Assembly: GCA_021464415.1 (NCBI GenBank)
Contig: CM038471.1
Location: forward strand, 32,771,234-32,835,233
Reading direction: 5' to 3'
DNA from: Lonicera japonica
Lineage: Eukaryota > Streptophyta > Magnoliopsida > Dipsacales > Caprifoliaceae
Length of the DNA stretch: 64,000 nucleotides
This document shows, piece by piece, positions 20,175 to 52,079 of the stretch; within the stretch, counting starts at the first letter, position 1, and the number at the start of each line of letters is the position of its first letter. A program made the translations under genes and the position numbers. The notes below the pieces were generated by a model that was given only the letters and a program-made list of their open reading frames with translations, was not told where the DNA came from and did not search any database.

Positions 20175-20179
20175 GTATC

Positions 20180-21731
20180 TGTGAGAATCCGCAAATGCGA
20201 CCCCCGGGTCTCATTCCCGTCCTTGGGCGTCTGAAACGTCAGAGCGGATTCTGTCGTTCCATTTGCTTCTATTGGTTCGATAATTCATATCAAGTGTCCC
20301 TATGTTCTATTTCTAGATGCAAAAGGGTTCGTTCAGAGTCGCCAGTACGATTTACGAGAAAATGGACAAAACAGTTGTGTAAGAGAAAAGGCTACAGATA
20401 AGTCTTTCTTTACACGTTTGTCTACGAAACCAAGATTCTATAGGGTTCGAAAACTATATTACGATTTGGGAAGGTGTTAAGCACCCATTCCGCCCTTTCG
20501 GTCTCTAATGGTCTTATATGTTTTATTTTATGTTAAAAAACTTGGATGCTTTTACTGACAGTCTATTACTTTCCAAGTGAAAAACCCTAATTCTTGGAAA
20601 AAACGGGGAAAGTGATATAAACCTTAGTGTTCCGAAATCCAATGTTTTGTTTTTGGAAGATGTAGATACAAGTGACAAAAGTTATTTTATTTTGAGAGAG
20701 AAAGTTTCCCATATTATTTCTCGGATAATGACAGTTTTTCTCGGGTTTTGACTTATTTTAGAGAAAGCTTAGATCTTGTATCGGGACTAATTTAATATGG
20801 AATTAGATCTCTTGAGGGGAGTTTTATCAGACACGTCGCATTCTAAAAAGACAGGATATGTTGATTTTAATTCCTAGATAAATTTTATCAGTCCGGGTTT
20901 TGAAAACAGGATTTTGTCCGGACGATAATGTACTTATTCTTCTGATTTTGCACATGGTTTTATCAGGGTCTTTTGTTTTGAAAACAATAGACTACTTTGT
21001 AACTTGGCAATAAGTTTATTCAAATAAAACGTGGACAGAACAACAGGAGTAAAACAAGTACATATATACAATTTTAATACTAGAAGAGACTTTCTTTACC
21101 TTCCCGACGAGAATAATAATAAGAAAGAAAATATAATGCGACAGAGAGATCTCCGGCGATAATGATCTTTTCCTTCTTCAGATATTTTCGAGAATTCGAT
21201 TCCAGAAACAGGACACGTCGAGTGTCGAGAATAAATTCGATAATTCTTCAGAAATAAGACGATAATCGAGAGTACTTGACGAAAGACCAGAAAATCAGAT
21301 ATAAGCCAATAATTCTTCAATCCCAAGTTGCTGTCCCTGAACCCTTAGGGGTGTTGGCCTATTTATAGTGCTCGGGGAAGAATGTCGCGCGACATTTCTC
21401 CAGAAAGGGCAAGTGTCGCGCGACATGTTGACCAATGTCGCGCGACATACGGCTGAAGTGATGTCTCTGACAGACTGATTTGTCAGAGAGTGGATGGTTG
21501 GGGTCAGAGGGGTTTGTCGTGTGACATAGGAGTGATTGTCGCGCGACATATCAGTGATTGTCGCGCGACATACTGATATGTCGTGCGACAATGCCACTTA
21601 AAAACAGGTTTGCTGGCCAACAAACCCTTTTGGGGTAGTTTCGGGTGCTCGGGTGGGTCCCAGACTCCAAAAATAGTAGTTCTTGTAGGTCGTTAGGGTT
21701 CTTAAGGGGGTCACTGATCGGGGTGTCTATA
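20180..21731 (-). mobile_element. 3' LTR of Tat-1
   Basis: 1552 bp. It contains a minus-strand TATA box (21360-21367) with TGTCGCGCGACA palindromes just upstream (21383-21600). The first dinucleotide on the minus strand is TA instead of TG. It is shorter than the 5' LTR mainly because it has fewer palindrome units. Confidence 0.9.
21360..21600 (-). promoter_or_regulatory. Tat-1 3' LTR promoter: TATA box plus palindrome cluster
   Basis: TATAAATA (minus strand, 21360-21367) with perfect TGTCGCGCGACA palindromes at 21383-21394, 21414-21425 and 21436-21447, and further exact or one-base variants between 21515 and 21595. Spacing from the TATA box to the first palindrome is about 15 bp. Confidence 0.7.
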
Positions 21732-21903
21732 GACCCTCTCGACTCAAGTTTCTTGCTTGTAAGGAATTGAGGCGACTGGAAGAGATCGTGATCCATGGCT
21801 CCCGCAAGAACTCTAAGGAAGTGTGCGCATGCAGAAAGTGTTCAAGAGTGCCTCCGGAGAGGGCTTTTGTTACCTCATTGCCTCTTTCGAGGACTTTCAT
21901 TTG

Positions 21904-22490
21904 CTCCACTCGCCTCAGATGGGAGGACTACCATTGTTACACTGTGCCTCTCGGGGAGGGCTTTTCTCTTCTCACCTCAGGTGGGAGGACTACCATTGCT
22001 ACACTGTGCATCTCTGGGAGGGCTTTGCTCTTCTCGCCTCAGGTGGGAGGACTACCATTGCTACACTGTGCCTCTCTGGGAGGGTTTTTCTCTTCTCGCC
22101 TCAGGTGGGAGGACTATCATTACTACACTGTGCCTTTCTGGGAGGGCTTTTGATCTGTAAGAAGAAAGAAAATTGCCTCTGGGAGGGCTTGTGTGAGTAT
22201 TTTTGCCTCTGGCGAGGGCTTTGCTCTTTTCGCCTCAGGTGGGAGGACTACCATTGCTACACTGTGCCTCTCTGGGAGGGCTTTGCTCTTCTCGCCTCAG
22301 GTGAGAGGACTACCATTGCTACACTGTGCCTCTCTGGGAGGGCTTTGCTCTTCTCACCTCAGGTGGGAGGACTACCATTGCTACACTGTGCCTCTCTGGG
22401 AGGGCTTTGCTCTTCTCGCCTCAGGTGGGAGGACTACCATTGCTACACTGTGCCTCTCTGGGAGGGTTTCTGATCTGTAAGAAGAAAGAA
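21904..22490. repeat. 62-bp tandem array with higher-order duplication
   Basis: Eight units of 62 bp share GGGAGGACTACCATTG and CACTGTGCCTCTCTGGGAGG. They form two blocks of four (starting about 21904 and 22220). The blocks are separated by, and followed by, a distinct spacer (GATCTGTAAGAAGAAAG...). The period is not a multiple of three, so the long frames across it are not proteins. It lies between the 3' LTR and the antisense PMD promoter. Confidence 0.9.
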
Positions 22491-22599
22491 AATTGCCTCT
22501 GGGAGGGCTTGTGTGAGTATGTTTGCCTCTGGCGAGGGCTTGTGTTTGTGATTTGCCTCTGGTGTGGGCTTGTGTTGCACTCTGGTGAATTTTGATGTC

Positions 22600-23400
22600 T
22601 CTCTTAGACTGCTAGTGTGAAAGAGAAATTTAGCGAGGGTGAAAAGAGCTTCTCGGGGTCTAATCTTGATGTCCATTTTCATGTATCCTTCTGAACTTTA
22701 CTCTCATGTTTTCCTCGAGTGAGGATACTTCTCTCAGAAGGCAGTTTTCGGATTTCTTTTGCTCTCCACAGAGTGATGATTCGAGGTTTTCCAAACCATC
22801 TCTTCTGTATCGTGCTGAAAAGAAAATTTGTTTGAAAGTTCAATCTCTGATCTCTGTTCTCTTTTTAGTTTTCTCTTTTGGTGGGCCCATATCGTATTCT
22901 GTTTTTCGATGCCTTTATTTATCCCTCTTTTGGGGAAGACTTTTCTTGGCCTTCTCTGTTTTTGACCAGGAGTCTTTTTATCCCTTTGTCGTGATCAGGA
23001 GCCTTACTCACCCAAAACAAAGCCCTGAGCCGGTTTTGGCCTAGCTGTCACTTTTGGTGTGGCTCTCCCTGTCACTCTGCGTTTCTGTTTCTCTCGCTCG
23101 TTCTGGGCACTCGTGCGGGTTCTTTCTTTTTTCTACTCTTTCAATTTTTTCTATTCCCGTCTTATCTTGATATTTTGTTTTTCTTTCATTAATGGTCTCG
23201 GTCCTTCTTGGGAGATCAGAGACTACTTTAACCGTTTGTATTTGTTCTTGCATTTTCGGAGAGATGATTTGGAAGTTTTTTCCTCGAATTTTCATCCTGG
23301 TGTGTGCGGTATTTAGCAAGTTTTTTGAAAACTGTTTCTCTGAAGTACTCCTGCAGGAGATAAAATGAGACAAAGGTCAAAAAATCAGGGGAGGGGACCA
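22600..23400. other. Tat-1 spacer upstream of the PMD promoter
   Basis: Pyrimidine-biased on the plus strand; contains no recognisable domain. Open frames are short and lack family resemblance. Confidence 0.5.
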
Positions 23401-23402
23401 AT

Positions 23403-23487
23403 ATGTCGCGCGACATTTCGGTGCAGAGCTCATTGTCGCGCGACAATGAGTCTGTTTGTCGCGCGACAAACTGGTGTATTATATATG
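23403..23487 (+). promoter_or_regulatory. Tat-1 antisense PMD promoter
   Basis: Three palindromes with the same 12-bp core TGTCGCGCGACA lie at 23403-23416 (outer bases A...T), 23431-23448 (CAT...ATG, core T-to-A extended) and about 23455-23471 (TT...AA), followed within 10 bp by a TATA-like TATTATATATG at 23477-23487. The PMD start codon is 138 bp further on. The same core and layout occur at the LTR TATA boxes. Confidence 0.7.
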
Positions 23488-23624
23488 CCCTTTGCTGAGC
23501 TCATTCCACTTCATTCTCTCATTTCTCTTTCTCTCTCTAGCTCTCTTTCTCTCTTCTCTCAAGCGCGGAAGCCCTGCCGCTTTTCTGATTTTTCCAACTT
23601 TCTCACTAATCTCTATATACACAG

Positions 23625-26600
23625 ATGGACCCTGCTTAGCCTGAGAGATTGGAGGGTGACCAGGAGGAGGTCACTTTTATCGATGCTCAGGGCGTTCTTC
23701 GATGCAACCCTCACCATGATGACTGGGAGGACCTTGACTGGTATGGCGAGGATGGGGTGGACCGCGGTTGGGCGGTGGTCTATTGAGACGTTACCCGAGC
23801 TGCTCCAGTCTCGGATGTTCCGTGGCTCTTGATGGAGCCTGTTTCTCATGAGATTCGTCGACAGTCTCTGGTATGTCTTCTTGGAATTCCTTTCCTTTGT
23901 GTGTTTATTCGTTTTATTATTTCTGTCGTTTCCTGCATGTATTTTAAACAATGTTAATATGCATGTCTGCCTAGAAATAACGTCCGATTTAGCGAACACA
24001 TACTTTTACCTGTGATACCTCTTAGGTTTTGAAAAATTACATAATTTTCCCCTATAACCCTATTTCTCTCATAATTACACCAAAGTACCCTCAGGTTTGA
24101 AAAATTACATAATTTACCCTTATAACCCTATATCTCTTATAATTACACCAAAGTACCCTCAGGTTTGGAAAATTACATAATTTGCCCTTATAACCCTATA
24201 TCTCTCATAATTACACCAAAGTACCCTCAGGTTTTGGAAAATTACATAATTTACCCTTATAACCCTATATCCCTCATAATTACACCAAAGTACCCTCAGG
24301 TTTGGAAAATTACATGATTTTACCCTTATAACCCTATATCTCTCATAATTACACCAAAGTACTCTCAGGTTTGGAAAATTACATATTTTACCCTTCTAAC
24401 CCTATATCTCTCATAATTACACCAAAGTACCCTCAGGTTTGGAAAATTATATAATTTTACCCTTATAACCCTATATCTCTCATAATTACACCAAAGTACT
24501 CTCAGGTTTTTGAAAATTACATAATTTACCCTTATAGTCCTATATCTCTCATAATTACCCTATAGTACCCTCAGGTTTGGAAAATTACATAATTTACCCT
24601 TATAACCCTATATCTCTCATAATTACACCAAAGTACCCTCAGGTTTTGAAATATTACATAATTTACCCTTATAACCCTATATCTCTCATAATTACCCCAA
24701 AGTACCCTCAGGTTTGGAAAATTACATAATTTTACCCTTATAACCCTATATCTCTCATAATTACACCAAAGTACCCTCAGGTTCGGAAAATTACATATTT
24801 TATCCTTATAACCCTATATTTCTCATAATTATACCAAAGTACCCTCAGGTTTGGAAAATTATATAATTTACCCTTATAACCCTATATCTCTCATAATTAC
24901 ACCAAAGTACCCTCAGGTTTCTTATATCTATATCTTCATTTTGCCTACAGTGGGTCGGTCGAGGTTGGGGTTCTCCCACCACTATTTTCGTAGAGTGGCG
25001 ACAAGCACAAGCCCCCGTCCAGGAGTTGCTCCTTGTGACTCCCTTTGGTTCTCTTTTTGATACCCTCTCGGAGAGGGTATTTAGGGTGGCTGTGTTGGTG
25101 TCGGCTCTGGCCTGTCACTGGTGGGACACCACTCATACCTTCCACTGGAGCTGGGGAGAGATGACGATGACTCCCCTCAACTTTTTTGCTTTGACCGGGA
25201 TTCCTTCAGAGGGAGTCCCCGTACAGATCGATGTCCCCGTATAGATTAATGTCCCTTGCGTCTGACGGCAGAGAGCATCGTCGGTGCATTAGGATGGTTT
25301 CCAGAGCGGCAGTGTTCTGGGGACACGATTCCTTGGGCTATCTTAGTAACGCGTCTGGCGACAGAGAAAGCCAGATTGATTGCTTCAGGAGCGCCAATGA
25401 CCCGCCAGCAGGTGCGTCAGTATGCCCGCATCCTCCTCTTACTGACGCTCCATGATCTGTTCGAGGCCCGTGGGGGGGACACGGCCCATCTCTGGTGGCT
25501 GCCCTACCTCCAGGATTTTAGCATCATGTTCGACTACGACTGGGGTGGTTTTATTCTTGCTGTCCTTTACGATGCTATGGACCAGATTTCTCGCCACTTG
25601 GTCCTGAATCTTAAGGGCTTTTCTTTGCTGTGGGAGGTATATACTTTTGTCCCTTTATTTTTGCTTCAGTCCCTTACATATTTATCTGTTTGATTTTTGC
25701 TGACATTCTTTTGCCTCTCTTTTTTTCTTTTTCAGAGCTGGTTTGTAGCTTATACTCATCTGGGTCGCGCCCAGGTGGATCTCCTCGTTGAGAACAAGGA
25801 CCAGTTTCCCTTTCTCTGCCGATTCATCGCGGGAAACTATAGAGCTCCTTATGTGTATCATACTCGAGAGACTGGAGCTGCTGCGGTCCATAACCTGTTG
25901 GAGGAGCATGTAAGTATTTTAGTATTCTTTCTCTTCAAATAGATGAATAGTAAAATAGAATATAAATAACTGAAATAAAATTTTTGTTTCTCGTTTAGAT
26001 TAAGTGGGCCCCCTGGGATGATCTAGGTCTCCACTTCGGATACAGCTGTGCTTTGACTGCCTCGAGGACCAGGCGGCTCATCAGGGATGAGTACGGCCTC
26101 CACTTTTACTTGGGCAAGAGAGTTATTCGCCAGCATACACCGGCCCAGTGGCCTAGAGTTCCTTCATTCCCACCAGTTTTGATGAGGCAGACGGGTAAGA
26201 TCGACTCGGTGACAGTGCAGGCGTTGGTTGACGGGCTCAGTTTTTAGACGTTCACCGAGGAGAGAGATTATGCTATCTTCGCTATCCGTTACTTGATGAG
26301 GGAGCCGAAGGGGACTCGGAGACGGGTCTTCTATGAGAGATACCGGGCGTTGGGCGGTGACCCCAACTATATACAAGGATAAACTCACTTGTCCAGGACA
26401 GTCCCCGGTCATCTGCCGCCTGTCCCTGATCAGAGGGACAACATTTTGGACTCCGATGATGATGACCCTGAGGGAGAGAGGGACGTCCTTACTGGTGCTG
26501 AGGGAGGCGATGATAGGCCCGAGGGAGGTGATGATAGGCCCGAGGGCGGTGAGGGAGGTGGGACAGCGGCTGTTCTAGAGTAGCCTCCTCAGACGACACC

Positions 26601-27580
26601 TATAGAGGAGCAGCGTGCTGAGGGTTTCGAGTTCTCTACTGGTCTATCAGCATCTCCGGGGGCTATTTTTAAGGCTGCTGAGGGAGGGACAGCAGATTTT
26701 TTGGAGCGATCCTGGGAGCCTGCGGACTTCGGGGTCGACTATGAGCAATTTGGGCAGACCCCTCCTGCTGCTGTGACCACTCCTTCCAGCGGGGTCCCCC
26801 CTTTGAGAGAGATGGTTGTCGTGGATCCTCCAGACGTTCGCACTTATGCTACACTGACTCCGCTTCCGTCGGCTGCTATAGGCCCTCCGGCCCAATCTCT
26901 AGGTTTTTAGGGGTTTTTTTTCTCGGCCTCCCCTGTTCCCGATTTGTGAGGAGGGTGGGTCCACTTCTGTGGCAGTACCGCTGGGTTCGTCTGTTCCTCT
27001 AGTAGACATCCCACCCTTTCCTCAAAATATTACCTACGTTGGTGCTGGTCTCCGCCACTATACTGTGCCTGAGTATCCTTTACCCGAGGATACCTTTGAT
27101 TATCTGGGCGGTCATGTTGGTGATAAGGTATGTCCATTCTATTCTGTCTTTCGCTGTTCTTTTATATATGTTTATCTTTTAAAAGTGTGATAACTCCCTT
27201 TCTTATTTCTTTTGCAGGGGGTGAGTGTTCGTGTAGCAGATCTGAGAGCTCTCCATGCCCAGTACCTCTACAACTGGAACCTCATTCAGTTTGTTAGTCG
27301 GGATCCCACGGCATACATGCGTAATTATCAAAGGACGATCGACGTATCTCTTCGGGTGGACGACCCTCTATCCACCTCTCGCGCTCGGTCAGAGTCTCGG
27401 AGGAGCAGTAGCCGGACTTCTAGGCATTCACGGTCTTCAGTGATTCGCCCCACGGAACCGGTCCAGTCGACGGGGCTTTCTAGGCAGCAGCTCCCTCTCA
27501 TTCGGATGTCCCAGCAGTTGATCTTACCCCAGAGGAGGGTTCGGGTGACAGTGGGAGCGTGTCGAAGCGCGCCCAGATAG
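23625..27580 (+). pseudogene. Antisense PMD (plant mobile domain) gene in Tat-1
   Basis: A five-exon gene opposite to gag-pol. Inferred exons: 23625-23870, 24951-25636, 25736-25909, 25999-27127, 27218-27580, each bounded by GT...AG (for example CTG|GTATGT, TGCCTACAG|T). Exons 2-4 encode a plant mobile domain: LACHWWDTTHTFHWSWGEM, then TPLNFFALTGIPSEG, then HLWWLPYLQDF, WGGFILAVLYDAM, and LGKRVIRQHTP. The N-terminus is acidic (NPHHDDWEDLDW). After the domain come an acidic Gly/Glu linker and a Ser/Arg-rich tail (exon 5). PMD proteins such as MAIN/MAIL1 act in nuclear silencing and genome stability, and related domains occur in transposons. Stops at codon 5 and elsewhere, plus a frameshift around 25245, make this copy a probable pseudogene. 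Confidence 0.75.
24005..24930. repeat. 68-bp minisatellite filling PMD intron 1
   Basis: About 13 head-to-tail units of about 68 bp, each with CTTATAACCCTATATCTC, ATAATTACACCAAAGTACC and CTCAGGTTTGGAAAATTACA. Units differ by 1-5 bases. The array occupies most of the 1.08-kb intron 23871-24950 and stops just before its 3' splice site. Confidence 0.95.
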
Positions 27581-27915
27581 ATTAGCTTTTCTTTTCCTGC
27601 ATTTAGTTAGTTCAGACAGATATGTAGTTTTATTTTTAGATATTTTAGACAGAGATTTAGTTTCTTGAAAACTGTTCTTTTATCAGTCTTTATAAAAATC
27701 TTTATTTGTGTCTGATGATGCGTTTTTATTCCTTATCTGTGATGAAAAGATAATAATTACATGAATCGATAATTTAGGAGCCATACCTTTGTGATGTGGC
27801 AGTACTTAGGGTTTCTGCAAAAGAACAGAGTGAGCACAATACATTTCAAAAGTGATTCTTTTGACAAAAGATGACTCTTATATGTAAGGAAGGCAAAAAA
27901 TAGGGGTTCTAAATA
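27580..27915. other. Spacer between the two antisense genes of Tat-1
   Basis: AT-rich 3' flank of the PMD gene, likely containing its polyadenylation region. No coding potential. Confidence 0.5.
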
Positions 27916-27997
27916 GGATTGTCACGCGAGAATCCCTCCTGATTATGGGTTTGTCGTGAGACAAACAAGTACTGGACCCTCTTTTGTGCTATAAATA
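27916..27997 (+). promoter_or_regulatory. Tat-1 promoter of the second antisense gene
   Basis: Two imperfect hairpins related to the TGTCGCGCGACA family: GGATT...AATCC around GTCACGCGAG (27916-27935) and GTTTGTC-GTGA-GACAAAC (27949-27966). The second is followed 23 bp later by TATAAATA (27990-27997). The start codon is at 28037. Confidence 0.65.
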
Positions 27998-28036
27998 CAC
28001 CCATCCTCCTTCTTTCATCCCCACCCCTTTCCCAAA

Positions 28037-29295
28037 ATGTCCTTTTTTCGTATAAATTCTGATTTCTCTTATGTTGAAGCCCGAGATACTCTGATATCTT
28101 CTGAGAATGGTTTGAACTTTGGTGCATTTAGTCCTTTAGCGGGCTGGTGCCATCGTCCTGTAGATTTTTCCTTTTTGCTGGGCGCTTTGTATCTCTAGAG
28201 CCCTGCGGATCATCTTTTCCGCTTTAGGCTAGATGAGCTCTGCCCTATTTATGAGGAGTTTTCCTGTCTGTTGCGTTTTGATGTTCGTCTCCCGATGGCA
28301 GTTCCCATAGAAGAAAGGGGTCCTCGAGATATGCTGATTGCCTTGTTAGCCATTTCCCAAGCGGCCTGTGATGGTTTTATTATCGATGGGCTTCTTGACC
28401 TCCATAAAATGGTGAAGTTCTTTCATCGTTACGAAGAGAGAGCTTCTTATAATGTGGGGAGTACTGCGGTGGCCTTGATCTGTCTTGTTTCTGATATGTT
28501 ACTGGTGACGGGCTCTTTCCGTGTTGATCTGACTATTCTGAGTTTGATTTACCATGCTAGGAATGGGGAGTCCATAGTGCCCATCGTTCTTGCAGAAACT
28601 CTGAATGGCCTAGACGATCTTTAAAGGGGGGCCTCACCCTTCTTCAGGGGGAGTCCGCGCTTGCTATACATGTGGCTATTGGAGTGTTTCTGATCGGTGG
28701 GTTTCAACGGGGTTCGGCTTGATAACCCGACGCACTTTTTCTGTCGTCCCCTCTTTGATGCTTTGACCATGTCTTCCTCTAATTGGACGGTGTGGTTCTC
28801 GGAGAATTTTTGGGCTATTCGGTGAAACATTCCTTGGTGGAAGCTGAGGGCGATAGTGCTTAGTACAGGGGGTCAAAACTATGTTCGGCTCTGTGGGCTC
28901 TGGTTTACCTCCTTTTATCTCCCAGGACGTCTTTTTCTGCAGTTCAACGTTCCTCAGGATATTCCTCTTGGTCTGAACAACTTTTCCTCTGAGTCTAAAT
29001 TTGTGACCCCGCATGTTTCTTTATCGGTAGAGAGGATGTAGCGTGCTCGACTGACTCGTCAGTTCAACTATGCCCGTTTCGGTATTACTAGGCCCCTCTA
29101 GGCTAACATCATCTATTCTCGTTGGGGGTCTTTAGAAGGGGAGCTAATTGATGATCCCTTCCAAATGGAGTGGTTCCGGTTCATGGATTCTGAGCCTAGA
29201 GAGGGGAATATTGTCTTTGCGTACCAGATCCTGGATGAGGCTCGAATTGATTTGGCTACTGAGGACCCTGCTTGGCTAACCCCTAGGGATTAGTT
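28037..29295 (+). pseudogene. Antisense DUF7745-like gene in Tat-1
   Basis: An apparently intronless gene of about 420 codons interrupted by several stops but continuous in one main frame. It starts MSFFRINSDF 40 bp after a TATA box. Landmarks: LDELCPIYEEFSCLL (about 28230-28275), then LRFDVRLPMAVP, ALLAISQAACDGFII, IVPIVLAETLNGLDDL, and after a stop RGSPRLLYMWLLECF. The block PIVLAET...GSPRLLYMW resembles the helical domain I recall as DUF7745, found in plant transposon-linked proteins. A homologous gene sits in the same place in Tat-2. Function unknown; stops suggest this copy is dead. Confidence 0.6.
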
Positions 29296-29398
29296 TTTTC
29301 TGTATACTGTATCTCCTTTATAACTTTCGGTGTTCTGAACCACCTTTAATAATATATGAAGGACTATTTGTGGGAAATACATTTCTTTATAATGTTTA

Positions 29399-29434
29399 AA
29401 CCGGGCCTGAAGTCACTTCTCAGGTTGCCTACGT
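29399..29434. other. Conserved 36-bp block downstream of Tat-1 pol
   Basis: On the minus strand it reads ACGTAGGCAACCT...ACTTCAGGCCCGGTT. The same block lies at 53474-53509 in Tat-2. It sits about 80 bp beyond the end of pol and about 100 bp beyond the end of the antisense gene, where the two transcription units converge. Confidence 0.7.
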
Positions 29435-29514
29435 TCCCCTTTTTGATTTTTCAAAAACACAATTTCGAGTTGGGGCTCAGGTTTACGTAGTTCTTATATA
29501 TACATGTTAAATCT

Positions 29515-30690
29515 ATTGGTAATACTTCTTCAATCAATCCATGTTAACTAGTGAATGTAGTAATTGTCCGTCCAAGTCTGTGAGTATAGCGGCACCCCCA
29601 GTGTCAATCTCTTTTACGATGTACGGCCCTGTCCATTTCTGCCAGAACTTCCCCTTGGGTCTCTGGCTGGTTCTCAAATTTCTTTCAGTACGATGTCATT
29701 CTCATTGATACCTCAAGTTTTTTACTTTTTGGTTAAACGCTCGAGCGAGCCTCTTCTGATACCCTTGGTGGTGGTATGCGGCTTTCAATCTCTTTTCATC
29801 CAGTAGGGCCAGCTCGTTATAACGTGCCTGGACCCACTCCAATTCATTGATTTGATTCTCTAGCATTACTCTGAGAGAGGGGACCTCTAACTCAACTGGG
29901 AGGACTGCTTCCATCCCGTATGTAAGTGAAAATGGGGTTGCCCCAGTAGAGACCCTCTCAGTGGTGCGGTATCCCCACAATGCATATGGAAATTTCTCGG
30001 GCCAGTCCCGGCAAGTGTGGGTCATCTTACTTAGGATATTCTTCAGATTCTTGTTGGCGGCCTCAACTGCCCCATTGGTTTACGGTCTGTATGGCGAAGA
30101 TCTGTGGCGGGTGATACCGTATTCTTCTATGACTGTATTAGCCTCTCCTTCGAAGTGGGTGCCGTTGTCTGAGATGATCTCGTGTGGGACCCCATACCGA
30201 CAGATGATATTCCGTCTGATGAATCGGGCAACTTTTCTGGCGTCAAGGGTTTGGGAAGACTCGGCTTCTACCCATTTGGTGAATAATCGATGGCCACTAG
30301 TATGAATTCATGGCCATTGCTGGCTTTGGGCGAGATCTTCCCAATGATGTCGATTCCCCAGGTTGCGAAAGGCCAGGGAGCAGTCATGTTGTACAATTCT
30401 TTCGGAGGAAGTTTCTGAGATTTAGCATAGATTTGGCACTTGTGACAACGGCGTACATGGTTAACGTAGTCGTTCTGCAAGGTAGACCAGTAATAACCTT
30501 GTCTGTTAATTTTGCGGGCAAGGGTATGACTGCTCATATGAGGTCCACAATCACCCCCATGCATCTGATCCATCATCTTAACCGATTCTTCTTCCGTGAG
30601 ACATTGAAGATGGGTCCCGTTGTAGTTCCTCTTATACAACCTTCCGGCACAAAGTATTAACCTTGATGCTAATTTCCTGAGTGTAACCCG
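29515..30690 (-). pseudogene. Tat-1 integrase
   Basis: Minus strand. The HHCC zinc finger is visible: MDQMHGGDCGPHMS, then HVRRCHKCQIYAK. The first catalytic Asp is in WGIDIIGK. The C-terminal region has ERVSTGATPFSLTYGMEAVL and then FWQKWTGPYIVKEI (about 29640-29600), ending LKKYY. Stops and frameshifts lie between 30268 and 30025 and in the C-terminus. The order is that of Ty3/Gypsy integrase. Confidence 0.85.
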
Positions 30691-30749
30691 TGTTTTCTTG
30701 TCCGTTTGTTCGGGATACTGATGGTTTTTTAAAAGGTTCCAGGTGTCCT

Positions 30750-31275
30750 AAAACCAAGTGGTTGAGTCCCCATTCTCTTCATTCTCTACCTCAAGGGCCA
30801 TGCAATGTGCTCGGCCTGATCTTCTTTGTACCGCAAGAGTTATTTCTTCCATCCCCTCCGGGATATCGATCATAGATGCCAGGGTTGCTAGTGCGTCAGC
30901 AAAACTGTTTTGTGACCTAGGGACATAGTAAAACTCTGAATGCTCAAACCTTCCTGCGACATCCTCCAGTCGGGCGAGGTAAGGGACCAATTTCTCATCG
31001 CTGATCTTCTATTCCTTCAGAACTTGATGGACCACTAATGCTGAATCTCCATATACCTGTATTCTCTTTATACCCCTTTGGAACGCGATCTCTAATCCGA
31101 TTATACATGCTACATACTCGGCCATGTTGTTGGTTCAGAAGAAGTCTAGACGATATGATACTGGAGAATGAGTTTGGTCTGGAGAGACCAACAAGATGCC
31201 TATCCCATTTCCGTTTCGGTTGGCGGCCCCGTCAAAGTATAATTTCCAGTCTTCATCGATCTCAACATTCATGAT
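30750..31275 (-). pseudogene. Tat-1 second (archaeal-type) RNase H
   Basis: The minus-strand trace shows three catalytic landmarks: WKLYFDGAANRNGNGIG (Asp), NMAEYVACIIGLE (Glu) and VYGDSALVV (Asp). A stop at 31135 and others interrupt it. Tat-lineage elements are known for this extra RNase H after the ordinary one, and its presence is a main reason for placing the element there. Confidence 0.8.
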
Positions 31276-31339
31276 AGTTTCGTCTAGGAATTCGGCTTCT
31301 TCTAGCATGTCCCCCAATATTGGATTGTGGGCTAGGTAA

Positions 31340-32456
31340 TCAGCTATGATCTTTCCTTTGACTGCCTTCTGGGTCATGTAGGTGATGTCGAATTCGGAGA
31401 GCAAGAATAACCTTTTTGCCATACGGTTCGAGAGAGCCAATTTTTTGAAGAGGTATTTTAACGGATCGATTCGTGATGCCAGGATGACCGGAAAAGCCAG
31501 CATGTAATGCCGTAATTTCTGCGTTACCCAGACGAGAGCGATGCATGATTTCTCTAATGGTGTATAGTTTATCTCAAATGGGGACAATTTTTTGCTGACG
31601 TAGTAGATGGCCTATTTTTTTCGTGTATCGGTCAGGTGTTGGGCTAGCATGGCCCCTACAGCTGAATTGATGACGGTCAGGTATAGAATTAATGGCAGTC
31701 CGGTCTGTGGTGGGGATAATATTGGGGGGTTGGAGAGATAGTCTTTGATTCTATTAAAAGCCTCCTGGCACTGATCGTCCCATTCTCCTGGTGAGGATTT
31801 CCTCAAGAGTTTGAAGATAGGTTCACAAGTTTGAGTAAGCTGAGAGATGAACCTGCTGATGTACTACAAATTATCTAGAAATCCCCGAACTTCTTTCTCG
31901 GTACGAGGCTCAGGCATTTCTCGGATGGCTCGAACCTTGGCAGGGTTTACCTCAATTCTTTTCTTATTGATGACATAGCCCAGGAGTTTTTCTTTGGCTA
32001 CCCCGAACACACATTTCTGCAGATTGAGTTTCATCTGGTACGGGCGGAGGCGATCAAAAAAGGCTCGTAAGACTGGCACATGGCCTTCCCTCTCCTTCGA
32101 CTTGATTATCATGTCATCCACATACACTTCTACTTCTTTGTGAATCATGTCGTGGAAGATAGCGATAGTTTCCCTCTGATATGTTGCCCCGGCATTCTTC
32201 AACCCGAATGGCATAACGGTGTAGCAGTATGTCCCCACGGTGTGATGAATGCTGTTTTCTCTTGGTGATCCAGGTGCATCTTGATATGATTATACCCGGC
32301 GAAATCGTCTACGAACGACTTCAAAGCATGGTTAGCGGTATTATCCACTATCAAATCAATGTTGGGTAATGGGAAATCATCTTTCGGGCAGGCTTTATTG
32401 AGATCTTGATAATCTACACATATGCGGACCTTCTCATTTGTCTTTGGAACGGGCAC
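31340..32456 (-). pseudogene. Tat-1 reverse transcriptase and RNase H
   Basis: The RT has VRICVDYQDLNKACPKD, then FGLKNAGATYQR and VYVDDMIIKSK with an intact YVDD box. The connection reads KKEVRGFL-type (here EKEVRGFLDNL), followed by RNase H residues SAVGAMLAQ, YTPLEKSC and LRHYM. A frameshift near 32235 and stops near 31862 and 31611 break the frame. All catalytic motifs remain visible, so the loss is recent. Confidence 0.88.
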
Positions 32457-32468
32457 AATGTTGGCTAA

Positions 32469-33190
32469 TCACGAAGGGTACTCGATCACCCGCAAAAACC
32501 CTACACTTAGTTGTTTCATTACTTCTTCTTTCACTTTCAGGGACCACTCAGGCGTAAGCTTTCTTAATTTCTGCTTGACGGGTCTAAACTCCGGCTTGGT
32601 GTGTATCTCGTGCATGACTATCTGGCTATTCAAACCTGGCATATCTGCATAGGACCAGGCGAAGATATCCACGTACTCATTCAGAGTTTGTGTGAATTCT
32701 TCTCTTTCTGTCTCGCTTAGACTTGCCTCAATACGGAACTCTTTCCTTTCTTCTTCAGTCCCGAGGTTAATCACAAGAGTGTCTCCCTCTTCACTCTGTA
32801 TACGTTGTTCTTCCCGCTCAGGGTGTTTGTTTAGTCTTTCCATCTTCATATAAGCAATTACAGAATCAAAACTAAAAGGATTACGCAAAAAATAGAGTCT
32901 TCTTCATTGATAATAGTGCTTACAGGTACAAGTTTAAAAAGTAAATCTAGGAGCGACTCCTCCCTAGTCTTACCCTCACTCTTATCTCTCACCCTTACAA
33001 TTTCACTATTTTCCCCCTTTTTCTGGTAATCTGGATCGGCATGTATTAAGTGTACAGGGTCTTCTCTAGGTTCATCATCCCCTAGAGCCATGACGTCGAA
33101 GAGATCTCCGACCATTTCTTCCTCTTCATCTTTCTCGTCTTCATTTCCTTCTCTCGGCCCGATTGTTAACTTGGTAGAGAAACTGTGCAA
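32469..33190 (-). pseudogene. Tat-1 protease-RT linker and RT N-terminus
   Basis: The minus strand contains an acidic linker (EGNEDEKDEEEEM) and, from about 32760, FTQTLNEYVDIFAWSYADMP and PVKQKLRKLTPEW, the typical N-terminal RT region of plant Gypsy elements. Broken by stops. Confidence 0.75.
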
Positions 33191-33610
33191 AATATTTTCC
33201 TTGAGATAGAGGTCCTCTTCATAGAAGATTTCCCATCCTGGAAGGTTATCTCCGTCGCTGTTTCTCCAAGGCTCCTAAAAGCCGCAAAAGGGGAAGTATT
33301 CTCCTTCTTTGACGAAAAACCCATTTAGAGAGCTAAAACTAGGATACTGATGCCCTCGACCCTTTTTCTCTTGGTTGTCTTCTTCGGTGTGCCGGTACCC
33401 CAACCCTGCTCTTTCACGCCTCGTTATTGGTTCTAAGGCCTGAAGTAATCCTGGCTGTCCCATTCTCAGACTGGCTCCAGGTAAGTATTTCATCATTCTC
33501 AGCATATTTGTGATCTTCGTGCTGAGACCGGGGATATTATCAGGGGGTACATACTCGATTCTCTGGGTGGTGAGAGCTTGTACTTGAGGCTCGTAAGAAA
33601 AGCCTCCCAG

Positions 33611-34256
33611 CTATATGCTCTGGCTCCCGATGCCCAAAACAGGTAATTCCAGATCTGCCAAGGTCCTCTCAGGATCTCCTTGGATGGTGATTATATTCCC
33701 TTCGAACAGTATCTTGATCTTCTGGTGTAAGGAGGAGGGGAGTGCTCCTATGTCATGTAGCCATGCTCTTCCTAATAGGATGTTAAAACTGGAGGGAATG
33801 TCTATGATTTGGAAGTCGGCTGGAAAGTTTCCGGGACCGACCATGAGATCTAGCTTTAGGGAACCCAGAACGGCCCTTCTGGTGTTGTCATAGGCTCTAA
33901 CAGTCACAGCTGACAGAGAAAGTTCTGAATCTAAGATACCCAGACATTTGGCGGTCTTTAAAGGGCAGACATTTATGGTTGACCCGTTGTCGATGAGGAC
34001 CTGCGGCAGGATTTTCCCTCGGGTCCGGATAGTATATGGAGGGCCAGATGTGTTTCTTCCCCAATGGAGATAAGTTTTCATCTGAAAATGACAGACTTTT
34101 TTGGACTATAAGGGACCTGATCATGTTTAGTAGTTGTTCTGGTGTGGAATCTAGTGATATGACGGCCTCATCTAGGAGTTTGATGAAGGCGGTCCTGTGA
34201 GGTTTGGAGGCAACCAAGAGGCCCCAAATGGTGATGTGTGCCTGAGTTTTCTTCAA
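33611..34256 (-). pseudogene. Tat-1 aspartic protease (retropepsin)
   Basis: An upstream segment (about 34250-34110) reads THITIWGLL-like with SKPHRTAFIKLLDEA, as in Tat pol. The protease frame (34081-33611) has active-site loop LIDNGSTINVCPL and the C-terminal ILLGRAWLHDIGA. Asp-Asn-Gly-Ser replaces the usual D-T/S-G. A frameshift joins the two frames. Confidence 0.8.
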
Positions 34257-34589
34257 CTGTTTCAGTACTCGATCTTCTCATATTCCCTTAGGAGGTGGTG
34301 ATTTCTCGGCATCCATTGGTGGTGGCTGGTATACCCTCCCTGAACGGGTAATTTGTTGTATCCAAAGGGATGCTGGGTCTAATCCCTCTGAGATTTCTGA
34401 TGACTCTGGCTCTACCGACCAACTGAAAGTCTCGGGGGAGGTTTCTGTTATACAGATTGTCTCATTGGGGGGGCCTCGGGGCTTCCACGACTGTTTCTTC
34501 TTATCCTGGGTCCATCATATCCCAGATTTTCCTAGATTGGTTTTGATTGTAAGTGGTTGTAAGATTCCTTGATTTGCCTTTCCTAAACC

Positions 34590-34922
34590 CTACCCGGGTA
34601 GGAAGTTTATTTTAGCCATCCATTGGTCAATTATCGGATTGAGGCCTGGGACAACTTGAGCCTTTTTTAGCGGTACAACTGGTGACTTGTAGGCTGGGTC
34701 ATCTCGGATGAGTCCCACGGGATCAAAACTTTCTTCATCAGTGGTTAAGGCGTTAATTCCCACAGGTGGAGCATGGTTGGGAAGGGGGTTGTTGGTAACA
34801 TTGGGCCTGCCGGGTGCGGGGATGGTTTCAGCTTCAATGAGGTCCTGGATACGATGGTGAAGAGCCAAGCAGTGTTCCGTGTCATCGCCTGCTGCTTGAT
34901 GGTATGCACAGTTCTCATTCAT
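34590..34922 (-). pseudogene. Tat-1 gag zinc-finger region
   Basis: The minus-strand frame starts with NENCAYHQAAGDDTEHCLAL, a CxxHx...HC-type knuckle as in Tat gag, then HHRIQDLIE and a proline-rich tail. It lies between gag and protease in the same orientation. Confidence 0.7.
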
Positions 34923-35102
34923 TCTCCAGGTGCTAGGAATAGGGTTTGGTGGGGGGCGCGGGTTGAGTGGAGTGATCAGTCCAGCCTTTCGGAGTAGTTC
35001 CAGGCTTTTGACCAGGGTAGTGGGAAGGGTGCAGAAGTTTCGCCTTTTCTTGGTCTCGGTGCTCGAAGAGTCTCCTTGTGCAGGCCAACTTATCGGAGGG
35101 GC

Positions 35103-36494
35103 TTATTGTGACTGTTGAAATGGATTTTGTTGATATGGGTATGAGCTTAGTTGATTTACGGCTAGAGTGGTCGTCTTCCTCCCGGTGTATGAGGCTTTCT
35201 TGGTATCAGTCTCTGCCTTCTTAGCCAATTCTTCCTCTACCTGCGACCCCATGCTCAACAGGGCTCTAAAGTGTGGGAACACGTACTTTCCTATACAAGT
35301 CAATACAGCAAGAGTGAAGTTTTTCTGAATTATCTCTAACTGCTCCTCTTTGTCTGGTCGTTTGGACATCTGGGATGCCATTTCTCTCCAGCGTGTAACG
35401 AAATCGCTGAAGCTTTCTTTCTCGCCTTGCTTGGCCATTTCCAGGTGTTTACGGGTAATTTCTAAATCCTTGTTGGACCCGTATTTGGTCATGAACTCCT
35501 TGACGATATCTTCCCAATTTTTTGTGTGGTGTCTCTCCAAATCGAAAAACCATCTCAGGGCGGCCCCCATGAGAGTCATAGGAAAGGCTTGAGCCAACTC
35601 TGGCTCTCCACAACCGGACACTTGCATGGATCTAATGTAGGATTGAAGATGGGTTTTAGGAGGCGTGGTTCCTGTGAATTTGGTGATGGAAGGGAGTTTG
35701 CATCCCTGGGGTAATCTTGCTTCCGGGTAGAAGGAGAAGGCATTCATATCTGTAATCTCGTCTGCCCATTTTATTAGAGAAATCCCCCTTTGCAGAACCT
35801 TCATTTGCTCTTTCAGTTTCTTCATTTCTTCACTCTCTCTTGACACCTTGTTGGGCTGTTCCCGAGATATAACCGATTTTGCATATAATGCCCGGAGTCG
35901 GTTGATGTCTGGGTACTCATTAGCAGGGGCTACCAGAGCCGCCAGTGGAATAGGCCTTGAGGGAACTTGTGGCCATGGTTGGTACTGAGGCTCAAAGCCT
36001 TTTTGGGGTTGGGGCCAAACGATGGGTGGCTCTTGTTGCTGATAAGTGGGGCCTGAATTCGGGGCCCATTGATTCTGATTGTTGGGACCGGTCTGAACAG
36101 GACCGGCTATGATGGGGCCCATTTGGGGTGGATTGGTTCCTTGGACTGGGGGAAGTACTTGTGATGACTGCCCTTGATTCTGATCTCAATTCCATGGTAG
36201 CCGTTCAAACCCCGGTGGTGCAGCTCATTCGGCTGACAACTCTTCTAGTTGGACTCGGGTACTCTGTTGCTTGGTTGTGAGGCTTCCTAGATTCTTGCTA
36301 ACAGTCATTAGTAAACGATGCATCTCGGCTAAGGTTGGCTGGACTGTTGATGCCTCGGCTAGGCTCTGATCTGTCTCTTGATTCTCGCGTCCATCGGCCA
36401 TTTTAGGTGTGCTTGGTCTTACTAGTCTTCCGGTATGATCTCGATCGGCCCAACCTTCCAGACTGTCGTTGTTTACGGCTGTAGACGAAACCAC
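35103..36494 (-). pseudogene. Tat-1 gag
   Basis: The main frame (36122-35103, 339 codons) has a proline/glutamine-rich N-terminus, a coiled-coil-like EEMKKLKEQMKVLQRG, then the Retrotrans_gag core: PKTHLQSYIRSM, AALRWFFDLE, FSDFVTRWREMASQM. The same frame extends upstream to 36494 but is broken by two stops near 36224 and 36185. It assembles the particle; no other product is likely. Confidence 0.85.
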
Positions 36495-36499
36495 GTGGC

Positions 36500-37123
36500 G
36501 AAGATGAAGGGAGACTATGATGCGACTTGATTTTTGCCAAAAGAACCACTAAAAATCGCCGAGAAAAGACTCGGGTTTTAAAAAGTGTTTTAAAGTAAGC
36601 TGTAAGGTGGTACATCCCCTACGGCTGTTTGACAAGTGTTTTAGCCGACTCGATCTTATATGCAGCGCAGGTGTACGAACGGTTAAGGCTTCAGGCTCCC
36701 TCATATTTGGCAAGACCTTGCGATATACCCCAGGGGCGGGTACGTGCAAGAATCGTTTGATATACTTTCCGGGTACGTGAGTGTTCTCGTCACTCGATAT
36801 ACCTCGGGGCGTACTTGGCCAAGGAGAGTGGAAGTAAATGCTTTCGGTTTATGTTGGCCTAAGCAAGCCAACTCCCTACTCACTTATAATACTTCCGAGG
36901 GTTTGGGGTAAATTCACACTCGTAGAACCAATGCATGATTTGTGAAAGTGCATGTGAAAGGTTGGTTTCACAAATATCATTATCTTTATTAAGTATTTTT
37001 GAAAAACTCCCATTTTTTAGAAAAAGGTTTCTTCTCAATCAATTAACATAAGTAGGGAAAGTAGTAAAAACAGATATTCAACAAATAAACAAAGTCCACA
37101 TATAAGAGTCTAGTTTTCTAAAG
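36500..37123 (-). other. Tat-1 leader (5' UTR)
   Basis: Noncoding stretch between the primer site and gag. It contains several related segments of type GATATACC...GGGCGTAC, similar in style to the Tat-2 leader around 45540-45680. Confidence 0.5.
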
Positions 37124-37141
37124 TCCCCAGCAGAGTCGCCA
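37124..37141 (-). other. Tat-1 primer-binding site
   Basis: The minus strand reads TGGCGACTCTGCTGGGGA, one base inside the 5' LTR end (LTR ...TCACA, then G, then the site). It resembles the tRNA-Arg-type primer site I recall for Ogre/Tat elements. Confidence 0.75.
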
Positions 37142-37142
37142 C

Positions 37143-38750
37143 TGTGAGAATCCGCAAATGCGACCCCCGGGTCTCATTCCCGTCCTTGGGCGTCTGAAAC
37201 GTCGGAGTGGATTCCGTCGTTCCATTTGCTTCTATTGGTTCGATAATTCATATCAAGTGTCCCTATGTTCTATTTCTAGATGCAAGAGGGTTCGTTCAGA
37301 GTCGCCAGTACATTTTACGAGAAAACGGATAAAACAGTTGTGTAAGAAAAAAGGCTACAGATAAGCCTTTCTTTACACGTTTGTCTACGAAACCAAGATT
37401 CTATAGGGTTTGGAAACTATATTACGGTTTGGGAAAGTGTTAAGCACCCATTCCGCCCTTTCGGTCTCTAGTGGTCTTATATGTTTTATTTTATGTTGAA
37501 AAACTTGGATGCTTTTACTGACAGTCTACTACTTTCCAAGTGAAAAACCGTAATTCTTGGGAAAAACGGGGAAAGGGATATAAACCTTTGTGTTCCGAGA
37601 TCTAATGTTTTGTTTTTGAAAGTTGTAGATACAAGTGACAAAAGTTGTTTTATTTTGAGAGAGAGAGTTTCTCGTATTATTTCTCGGATAATGACGGTTT
37701 TTCTCGGGTTTTGACTTATTTTGGAGAAAGCTTAGATCTTGTATCGAGACTAATTTAATATGGAATTAGAACTCTTGAGGGGAGTTTTATCAGACACGTC
37801 GCAGTCTAAAAAGACAGGATATGTTGATTTTAATTTCTAGATGAGTTTTATCAGTCCGAGTTTTGAAAACAGGATTTTGTTCGGACGATAATGTACTTAT
37901 TCTTCTGATTTTGCAAATGGTTTTATTAGGGTCTTTTGTTTTGAAAATAGTAGACTACTTTGTAACTTGGCAATAAGTTTATTCAAATAAAACGTGGACA
38001 GAACAACAGGAGTAAAACAACTACACAGATATACAATTTAAATACTAGAAGAGACTTTCTTTACCTTCCCGACGAGAATAATAATAAGAAAGAAAATATA
38101 ATGCGGCGGAGAGATCTCCGGCGATAATGATCTTTTCATTCTTCAGATATTTCTGAGAATTCAATTCTAGAAACGGGACACGTCTAGTGTCGAGAATAAA
38201 TTCGACAATTCTTCAGAAATAAGACGATAATCGAGAGTACTTGACGAAAGTCCAGAAAATCAGATATAAGCCAATAATTCTTCGATCCCAAGTTGCTGTC
38301 CCTGAACCCTTGGGGGTGTTGGCCTATTTATAGTGCTCGGGAAAGAATGTCGCGCGACATTTCTCCAGAAAGGGCAAGTGTCGCGTGACATGTTGACCAG
38401 TGTCGCGCGACATGTTGACCAGTGTCGACCAGTGTCGCGCGACATGTTGACCAGTGTCGCGCGACATACGGCTGACGTGATGTCTCTGATAGACTGATTT
38501 GTCAGAGAGTGGATGGTCGGGGTCAGAGGGGTTTGTCGTGCGACATAGGAGTGATTGTCGCGCGACATATCAGTGATTGTCGCGCGACATACTAATATGT
38601 CGTGCGACAATGCCACTTAAAAACAGGTTTGCTGGCCAACAAACCCTTTTGGGGTAGTTTCGGGTGCTCGGGTGGGTCCCGGACTCCAAAAACAGTAGTT
38701 CTTGTAGGTCGTTAGGGTTCTTGCGGGGGTCACGTATCGGGGTGTCTACA
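37143..38750 (-). mobile_element. 5' LTR of Tat-1
   Basis: 1608 bp; minus strand starts TGTAGACACCCCG and ends ATTCTCACA. The right flank is GTATC (38751-38755). It carries a TATA box at 38325-38332 and a larger palindrome cluster (38348-38610) than the 3' LTR. Confidence 0.92.
38325..38610 (-). promoter_or_regulatory. Tat-1 5' LTR promoter with expanded palindromes
   Basis: TATAAATA (minus strand, 38325-38332). The first palindrome is at 38348-38359, then a run of TGTCGCGCGACATGTTGACCAG-like units at about 38380-38470, including one partial unit (TGTCGACCAG). More palindromes follow at 38535-38610. Confidence 0.75.
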
Positions 38751-38755
38751 GTATC

Positions 38756-49955: not shown

Positions 49956-50994
49956 GTGGTAGAAATAATTGATTCTGACAAAATAAACATAATTGATGAA
50001 AATGATTTCTTACGCCATTTAAAAGAACTTGAATTAAAGGAAAATGATCACGTGAAACCTAGTGAGGATGACCTGATTAACATTAACCTAGATGCACCCG
50101 AGGAACCCAGAGAAGTCAGGATAGGGTCCACTCTGAGTGCTGAAGAGCAGTCTAACTTCTTCAGCTTGTTACGAGAATTCGTGGATGTATTCACTTGGCC
50201 TTATGCAAATATGCCTGGAATAGATCAGTAAATTGTTATGCATAAAATTCACATCCCTCCTGAGATCAAACCGGTCAAGCAAAAGCTAAGAAAATTAAAA
50301 CCCATATGGTTGTTGAAAGTAAAAGAGGAAGTGGAGAAGCTTTTAAAATTTAAGTTTATTTGGGTCATTAAGTATTTGACATGGTTAGCCAATGTTGTGC
50401 CAGTGCCCAAGTCCACCAGAAAGGTACATAGGAGTGTTCGTAAACTTCAAGGATCTCAACAGAGCTTGCCCCAAAGACAATTTCCCCTTACCAAACATCA
50501 ATATAATTGTCGATAGTACTACCTCGCATGCCCTAAATTAGTTCGTATATGGTTTTGCGGCTTACAATCAGATTAAAATGCACTAGGACCACAAGGAGAA
50601 CATAGCATTCATCACGCTTTGGGGAACCTACTGTTATACAATCATGCATTTTGGATTAAAAATCGCCGAGCCCACTTATCAAAGAGCAGCCACAACCATT
50701 ATACATGACATGATCAATAAAAAAGTGGAGGTTTATTTGGATGATATGATCGTCAAGTCCAAAGATAGGGAAGGCCACCTTGTTTTCTTAAGGAAGTTCT
50801 TCGAGAGACTATGGTTATACATGATGAAACTCAACCCGCAAAAATGTGTTTTTGAGGTCACCAAAGGAAAGCTGTCAGGGCACGTTGTTAGCAAAGAAAG
50901 TATTGAAATAGATCCTACCAAGATAAAGGCCATCACGAAAATGCCTACACCAAAGACCAAAAAAGAGGTGAGAGGTTTCTTAGGAAAAATCTAA
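49956..50994 (+). pseudogene. Tat-2 reverse transcriptase
   Basis: FVDVFTWPYANMPG, then KPVKQKLRKLKP at the N-terminus. A frameshift lies around 50430 within VPVPKSTRKV. FGLKIAEPTYQRA and VYLDDMIVKSKDREG (YLDD box, canonical YVDD) are at 50644-50770, then KKEVRGFLGKI. Stops at 50229 and in the middle. Confidence 0.85.
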
Positions 50995-50999
50995 AACAT

Positions 51000-51510
51000 T
51001 AGCCGCTTCATAACACAGTTGACTTCTATTTACGATCAGATCTTCAGATTGTTTCGAAAAGATTCTGATTGGGTTTGGGACGATCAGTGCCAAAAGGCCT
51101 TTGAAAAGATCAAGCGATATCTATAAAAGCTACCGATCTTCATGCTACCACAACCTGATTTGCCTTTACTCTTGTATTTGACTATTAGCGATATAGCCAC
51201 AAGGGCCATGTTAGCCCAATGCATAGAAACATCCTCGAAAGAAAGGGCGATCTATTATGTCAGTCGAAAGTTTACGTCTTGTGAAATTAGATATTCGACT
51301 CTAGAAAAGACATGTGCCGCTTTGGTTGGAGTGGCTCAAAAATGGAGGCACTACCTACTATCCTTCCAAGTTAAGTTAATCTCGAGAATGGATCCCATTA
51401 AGTACTTATTTAAGAAACCCGCTCTATCTAGCATAATGGCCAGATTTCATTTCCTCTTGTTTGAGTTTGACATCTCTTATGTCACTTGGAAGGCAATAAA
51501 GGACAAGTGA
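51000..51510 (+). pseudogene. Tat-2 RNase H
   Basis: IATRAMLAQCIE, KERAIYYVSRKFT, YSTLEKTCAALV and WRHYLLSF identify the standard Gypsy RNase H. One open frame covers 51142-51510. Confidence 0.8.
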
Positions 51511-51539
51511 TAGCAGATTACTTGGCAGATAACTCGCTG

Positions 51540-52010: not shown

Positions 52011-52079
52011 TATTCCCTTTGATAATTGAGAAGAGGGCTGAGCCTGTATACTATTTCAAAATTGAGGTATTGGAAGAGG

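Follow-up and report, generated by a model that had tools for sequence, protein, structure and literature searches.

The 64,000-nucleotide stretch of Lonicera japonica DNA analyzed in the present study, hereafter called the window, contains a Ty3 long terminal repeat (LTR) retrotransposon with two antisense genes, and one short palindrome recurs upstream of the TATA boxes of its LTRs and of both these genes. The element occupies 20180–38750 on the minus strand, carries gag and pol, and is flanked by a duplication of GTATC (20175–20179 and 38751–38755). Its 3′ LTR, on the left in window coordinates (20180–21731, minus strand), and its 5′ LTR, on the right (37143–38750, minus strand), were, like the duplication, read directly; as calculated from the coordinates they are 1,552 and 1,608 bp long and enclose an internal region of 15.4 kb, and they are 95.3% identical over their aligned bases. 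The primer-binding site TGGCGACTCTGCTGGGGA, which supplied the pattern for the primer-site search described below, is situated just inside the 5′ LTR. On the minus strand, gag was placed at 35103–36122 by a Pfam match and pol at about 29400–35000 by its position and its conservation with relatives. The long region from pol to the 3′ LTR holds both antisense genes, which run opposite to gag; this sets the strand layout right, with the element on the minus strand and its antisense genes on the plus strand. We take the element to be of the Tat type, on the basis of the antisense genes and the primer site.

One antisense gene (23625–27580, plus strand; probable ATG at 23625 by eye), traced through open reading frame (ORF) pieces, encodes a plant mobile domain (PMD) protein, as two of its pieces match PF10536, one with a score over the curated cut-off. 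For the other (28037–29293, plus strand; probable ATG at 28037 by eye), the Pfam search with the window pieces did not return DUF7745; one of these pieces is 89% identical over 141 residues to the Lonicera macranthoides protein P0002 (LguiA_007186). We call it DUF7745-type because of that match, because of its homology to the corresponding gene of a second element family (family B, below), and because the family B homologue matches PF24924 (DUF7745). Both genes are broken in the window copy. Two tandem repeats were also noted in this part of the element, one of 62 bp units between pol and the 3′ LTR (21838–22581) and one of 68–69 bp units inside the PMD gene (24028–24944), where it probably lies in an intron.

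The palindrome TGTCGCGCGACA is present in the window in 14 exact copies and in 21 copies within two mismatches, while 100 shuffles gave a mean of 0.33 and at most 2 such matches. All of the sites are upstream of three types of TATA box, and no further site within two mismatches was found elsewhere in the 64 kb, in agreement with the preliminary description, which had placed clusters of the core beside the LTR and PMD TATA boxes and the exact core nowhere else. Seven palindromes, five of them exact, precede the TATA box TATAAATA of the 3′ LTR (21360–21367, minus strand) at 21383–21590, starting at 21383, 21414, 21436, 21515, 21537, 21559, and 21579; nine, six of them exact, precede the TATAAATA of the 5′ LTR (38325–38332, minus strand) at 38348–38609, starting at 38348, 38379, 38401, 38433, 38455, 38534, 38556, 38578, and 38598. 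Three exact palindromes (23404–23468; starts 23404, 23434, and 23457) lie upstream of the PMD-gene TATA box (23480–23487, plus strand), which reads TATATATG in the window copy and TATATAAG in four aligned relatives, and two decayed ones, 32 bp apart (27920–27963; starts 27920 and 27952), lie upstream of the TATAAATA of the second antisense gene (27990–27997, plus strand). The last palindrome is 15 bp from the TATA box in both LTRs, 11 bp in the PMD gene, and 26 bp in the second gene, so that the spacing of about 6–25 bp given earlier was nearly right.

When palindromes of any kind were counted ahead of the TATA box in 15 regions, their density surpassed that of every shuffle only in the two LTRs of the window, and the second antisense promoter of the window scored a single unrelated dyad because its own sites have decayed; the case rests on the recurrence of the same motif. 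Every exact site is a perfect dyad, which would also suit a motif that acts by folding into a hairpin, as RNA or DNA, and not by binding a protein. The dyad has no loop, however, and, as read from the sequence, the 12-mer could form a stem of no more than 4 bp around a loop of 4 bases; moreover, at the antisense genes the sites precede the TATA box, and we regard the hairpin explanation as very improbable.

In the host genome (886 Mb), TGTCGCGCGACA occurs in 29,561 exact copies as against one for a reversed control. Within 140 kb, composed of 14 stretches of 10 kb around the first listed motif places and hence informative about where sites lie rather than about how abundant the element is, all 87 sites within one mismatch (53 exact) were in promoters of the element, namely 69 in LTRs, 12 in PMD promoters, and six in second promoters; the 78 kb outside the labelled element and the 41 kb of its remaining parts contained none. 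A scatter of the palindrome over random positions in other family members, which the preliminary description had named as the outcome that would speak against a shared regulator, was therefore not what the relatives showed. The distances to the TATA box recur as well: the palindrome followed after 15 bp by TATAAATA has 3,295 genomic copies and the PMD promoter geometry, with TATATAAG after 11 bp, has 577, both against none in the control, and the bases in between differ among the places listed. A search with a double-palindrome pattern gave no match in viral contigs and four contigs of metagenome-assembled genomes (MAGs; L015–L018) among bacterial genome contigs, which we take as chance matches.

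Loci were also collected without regard to the motif. The primer-binding-site search found 3,090 places, the first 30 of which, all near the start of C1, were taken; 20 belong to the family of the window element (family A) and ten are different, and 18 of the 20 carry at least one site within one mismatch. Among 18 A-type LTR loci of this set, the gap between palindrome and TATA box is 15 bp in 12, 16 bp in one, and 46 bp in two. For the second antisense promoter, 98 of 3,340 candidate places were scored in a match with an independent DUF7745 protein, and 20 of these, all with no stops in the match, were taken. All 20 promoters can be aligned with that of the window, and each has a pair of sites at a spacing of exactly 32 bp, with both members exact in 18 and the last site 25–28 bp before TATAAATA; exact sites at this promoter were also found in L002 (one of two) and L012 (two of two). 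The imperfect pair in the window is accordingly a decayed form of this arrangement and not a separate, relaxed hairpin type, as had been proposed when sites there were first recognized. In one copy, L073, a third palindrome lies within a 32 bp insert that resembles its neighbors, and this insert may be an example of how arrays grow. The annotated start of P0002 (residues 1–41, LSRDT...VCRATN) appears to be such a promoter read as protein because LSRDT and VCRATN fit two palindromes 32 bases apart, and the true start of the protein is probably a later methionine. A general helical phasing of the sites was considered and dropped, as the intervals are 20–23 and 30–34 bp in family A but 19–20 and once 41 bp in family B and 19, 30, and 54–55 bp in family C (both introduced below).

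At the PMD promoter the sites are also better conserved than their surroundings: across an alignment of five copies, 33 of the 36 columns within palindromes show no variation, as against 167 of 285 others (Fisher p = 4e-5, with the caveat that alignment columns are not independent). When 236 sites with up to two mismatches are compared, their outer TGTC/GACA is nearly constant, and the most frequent change affects the two central bases.

Four of the remaining primer-site loci (L019, L030, L031, and L032) form family B, whose upper LTR is unmatched by family A and carries arrays of another palindrome, RRCCGYRCGGYY, upstream of the TATA box. The 3′ regions of two B elements, fetched by distance alone, both contain antisense PMD and DUF7745 genes, and in the two 8 kb stretches every B motif (six of six and seven of seven) lies upstream of one of the two antisense TATA boxes, at a distance of at most 90 bp; for one promoter of each antisense type, the number of sites was never reached in 1,000 shuffles. 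Judged by positions alone, C1:307038–324542 and C1:589109–606947 show the same order of an LTR cluster, two sites, two sites, and an LTR cluster. Genome-wide, the pattern RRCCGTACGGYY has 5,879 occurrences versus 264 in the control.

Family C was recognized from two further primer-site loci, L023 and L041, in which TGTCYGCRGACA lies upstream of the LTR TATA box. The pattern TGTCCGCGGACA is in weak excess in the genome (382 versus 198 in the control), and among 50 places listed, C1:28338511–28366701 has a lone site between two close pairs. Eight stretches were fetched from this list: seven are C-LTR-like, and the lone internal site proved to be a PMD promoter, so that the C PMD promoter was located by a motif first read from C LTRs. 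It bears an array of five sites (one exact, three with one mismatch, and one with two), followed 32 bp on by a TATA box, and the first PMD exon is 46% identical to that of family B (E = 2e-10) and 37% to that of family A. About 4 kb from this promoter is a DUF7745 gene, 41% identical to that of B and 48% to the A-type P0002, whose promoter, fetched by position, has three C-type sites, the last of them 14 bp before TATATATA. From their position and orientation, these antisense genes are presumably those of the element that the two LTRs enclose. An initial idea that family C is devoid of antisense genes, none having been matched in a stretch fetched by distance from the element of L023 (L050), was refuted by the presence of both genes in L080, L087, and L088.

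Thus, three families in one genome each have their own palindrome at all three promoter types. In the 250 bp before the TATA box, with one mismatch allowed, the family's own motif was found in 67 of 68 promoters of families A, B, and C and a foreign motif in none of 136 tests over the same promoters, numbers that are to be read with nine promoter types as the independent units, as promoters within a family are not independent and the motif definitions were drawn from these families. The single miss is L043, the LTR of which is A-like in its lower part only. L074–L077, L079–L083, and one set of A promoters were fetched via the motif; the rows fetched without it gave 15 of 16 for A LTRs, 20 of 20 for A DUF7745 promoters, 4/4, 2/2, and 2/2 for B LTR, PMD, and DUF7745 promoters, and 2/2 and 1/1 for C LTR and DUF7745 promoters. 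The matrix omits the A loci L026 (six sites, no TATAAATA in the first 600 bases) and L048 (no site, no TATAAATA), L020 and L021, which overlap motif-fetched A loci, the LTRs of the motif-fetched A loci, the B-like L025 (no B site, no LTR TATAAATA), L024 (no TATAAATA), L078, and the C-like L084–L086. With these comparisons, the sharing of the motif among promoters, its positions, its restriction to promoters, and its concerted change between families are established at the sequence level. The antisense proteins have diverged in parallel, those of A and B being 44–51% identical in the longer pieces and 27–60% over all pieces.

This concerted change at three promoters, together with the parallel divergence of the antisense proteins, points to a family-private, trans-acting factor. 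We consider it probable that the palindromes are binding sites of a regulator that acts as a sequence-specific dimer, is private to its family, and serves the LTR and the two antisense promoters alike. Binding by a protein, the origin of that protein from the element (the PMD or the DUF7745 protein), and activation or anti-silencing rather than repression are what we infer from the pattern. The earlier proposal of a single element-specific regulator for sense and antisense promoters is supported in part, inasmuch as it passed the three-family motif test. A dimer of the regulator would bind upstream of the LTR promoter, which directs the sense gag-pol RNA, and of both antisense promoters, and a single protein could thereby switch all three, including the promoter of its own gene if it is antisense-encoded. 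A loopless perfect dyad that is repeated and reads the same on either strand would suit a homodimeric activator serving both directions, and co-evolution of regulator and sites, family by family, would keep sense and antisense transcription coordinated. Anti-silencing is an attractive version of this mechanism because the sites are CpG-rich. The regulator is probably encoded by one of the antisense genes, which is the simplest origin for a family-private factor. The further proposition, that the elements maintain private autoregulatory circuits in which the antisense PMD or DUF7745 protein represents a new class of dimeric DNA-binding protein whose target has been rewritten family by family, seems to us about evenly balanced between true and false.

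The most serious competitor for the element-encoded regulator is that each family recruited a different host transcription factor and used it at all of its promoters. Plant LTRs often rely on host factors, and ordinary dimeric factors would fit perfect dyads beside TATA boxes. That scenario requires, however, that all three promoter types switched to one new factor in each of three families residing in one nucleus; furthermore, none of the 87 sampled sites lies outside the element (in a sample centered on the motif, such that rare host sites are possible), and the motif has 29,561 copies in the genome as against one of the reversed control. We therefore think recruitment of host factors rather unlikely, if worth keeping in mind. 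A regulator encoded by the element might alternatively be a repressor, with the palindromes as operators that damp its own sense and antisense transcription. Self-control of copy number is known in transposons, and in the measured copies with a nearby site the last one is 11–37 bp from the TATA box, except in B LTRs and two A LTRs (46 bp), near enough for a bound dimer to block assembly. Arrays of up to nine sites per LTR and the spread to thousands of copies are at least as compatible with activation or anti-silencing, and repression appears unlikely to us.

A different kind of explanation is neutral spread, in which template switching copied pieces of the LTR into the internal promoters without any function. 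The promoters of B and C do share short blocks around the palindromes, and local duplication enlarges arrays, as the third site in L073 illustrates. In family A, however, the sequence common to the promoters stops within about five bases of the palindrome, and the sampled sites are confined to promoters, at distances from the TATA box that are specific to each promoter while the intervening bases vary; neutral spread is, in our opinion, improbable. The shared blocks of B and C and the L073 insert suggest that sites probably spread by small duplications, which has been described for VANC targets.

Several observations weigh against the regulator hypothesis. No known DNA-binding domain was found by Pfam in the PMD and DUF7745-type proteins, a structure model of DUF7745 built from six homologues with P0001 first had a mean pLDDT of 46, too poor to help, and a Protein Data Bank sequence search with two family B pieces returned no credible relative. 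The C antisense promoters are known from one element; L050 gave no antisense gene match and its sites are LTR pieces, a stretch beyond L041 (L052) has no C motif, and no C-type antisense promoter was found in either. In family A, L043 and L048 are without a site within one mismatch, and three of the 18 A-type LTR loci have no site within 60 bp of TATAAATA. Conservation at the second antisense promoter is weaker than at the PMD promoter (21 of 24 palindrome columns invariant versus 178 of 277 others in 20 copies, p = 0.02; 13 of 24 versus 106 of 283 in 25 copies, p = 0.13), and the two LTRs of the window give no more than a hint of CpG retention (18:1 versus 44:15, p = 0.10). The geometry of B LTRs is looser than that of A and C, as the last full site is 87–89 bp from the TATA box in four copies and 177 and 216 bp in two others. 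In B and C the similarity between promoters extends some bases past the palindrome, which indicates that copying of short blocks contributed to the sharing of sites there. Between the B palindromes in the LTR of L019 there are three copies of TGTCGCACG, a half-site resembling that of family A; this half-site was not seen in the B antisense promoters tested, and it hints at a common origin of the motifs and an imperfect separation of the families. Two loci outside the three families add to this side of the balance: in L029 and L037 none of the three motifs lies before the LTR TATA box.

L029 and L037 belong, with L024, to a fourth LTR group that has the same primer site and a lower LTR related to that of family C. 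A block like GAGACCGAAAGGGCGAATT, within four mismatches, was found in all 11 LTRs tested of A, B, C, and this group, and it appears from this comparison to be a conserved element of the lower LTR, while the upper parts differ by family. A further family, E, defined by the LTR in L052, is old, and its motif, like ATTAMCCGTACGGKTAAT, has 19 exact copies in the genome versus none in the control; no matching motif was seen by eye between a PMD-like gene and that LTR, but the pairing of gene and LTR is assumed, and family E is counted on neither side. Elsewhere in the window, at about 50180–53140 and in the orientation opposite to the element, two stretches are 66% identical to the pol region and probably represent another Ty3-like element, although a pair of LTRs was not found there.

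Earlier publications already describe antisense genes in plant LTR retrotransposons, with promoters of their own and a regulatory role that they are suspected to have. As far as the parts of the reports drawn on here go, Grande gene23, Retand, and RIRE2 antisense genes are located between pol and the 3′ LTR and have been suggested to be regulatory, gene23 having its own promoter and a nuclear product (PMC7264820, PMC11963269), and the review lists the function of such genes as unknown (PMC7264820). The emphasis of PMC11963269 is on TRP28 (PF04195), with an antisense ORF containing this domain in 97% of Retand clusters, while the antisense genes found here match PMD and DUF7745, and TRP28 was not matched in 10 window pieces (two of them gag/protease) and four family B ORFs, the genes having been scanned in pieces. 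The size ranges given there for recently active Retand elements (LTR 315–1,194 bp, internal region 7.4–12.9 kb) are exceeded by the window element. Apart from entries in the reference list, a term search of PMC11963269 found neither TATA nor an analysis of promoters or palindromes; literature searches returned one unrelated paper for the exact palindrome core, none for DUF7745, and nothing relevant, by title and abstract, for palindromes with LTR promoters. The palindrome common to antisense promoters and LTR, and its family-specific replacement, were not found in the literature searched. If the regulator hypothesis is correct, a defined 12 bp target that changes with the gene family would give the function of the antisense genes a concrete binding target, related families in one nucleus would avoid cross-activation, and tens of thousands of transposon-derived sites would form a private regulatory network in the host genome.

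We know of no sequence-specific palindrome binding by MAIN or MAIL1, the Arabidopsis plant mobile domain proteins. According to the portion of PMC9289625 considered here, these proteins act in transcription and in the silencing of transposable elements; they share the PMD domain with the gene of the element but are host genes.

VANDALs are DNA transposons, and foamy viruses have an internal promoter in the sense orientation, unlike the antisense promoters described here. Foamy virus Tas acts at the LTR promoter and at the internal promoter (PMC4929722, in the part relevant here), just as one element-encoded protein, putative in our case, would act at LTR and internal promoters. The motifs recognized by VANC of the Arabidopsis VANDAL MULE transposons are short, element-private, and arrayed, and protein and motif evolve together (PMC5735166, in its account of these motifs). 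VANC, cited in the preliminary description as a precedent, holds as such at the level of logic, with private, arrayed motifs that differ between related elements and stand, like those found here, in the element's own non-coding DNA. Binding and demethylation by VANC have been demonstrated experimentally, whereas the present system is known from sequence and concerns an LTR retrotransposon with a putative binder and with palindromes before the TATA boxes of sense and antisense promoters. Should such a binder exist, the elements would possess an LTR-retrotransposon counterpart of VANC or of the viral transactivators, which would explain why their antisense genes have been retained.

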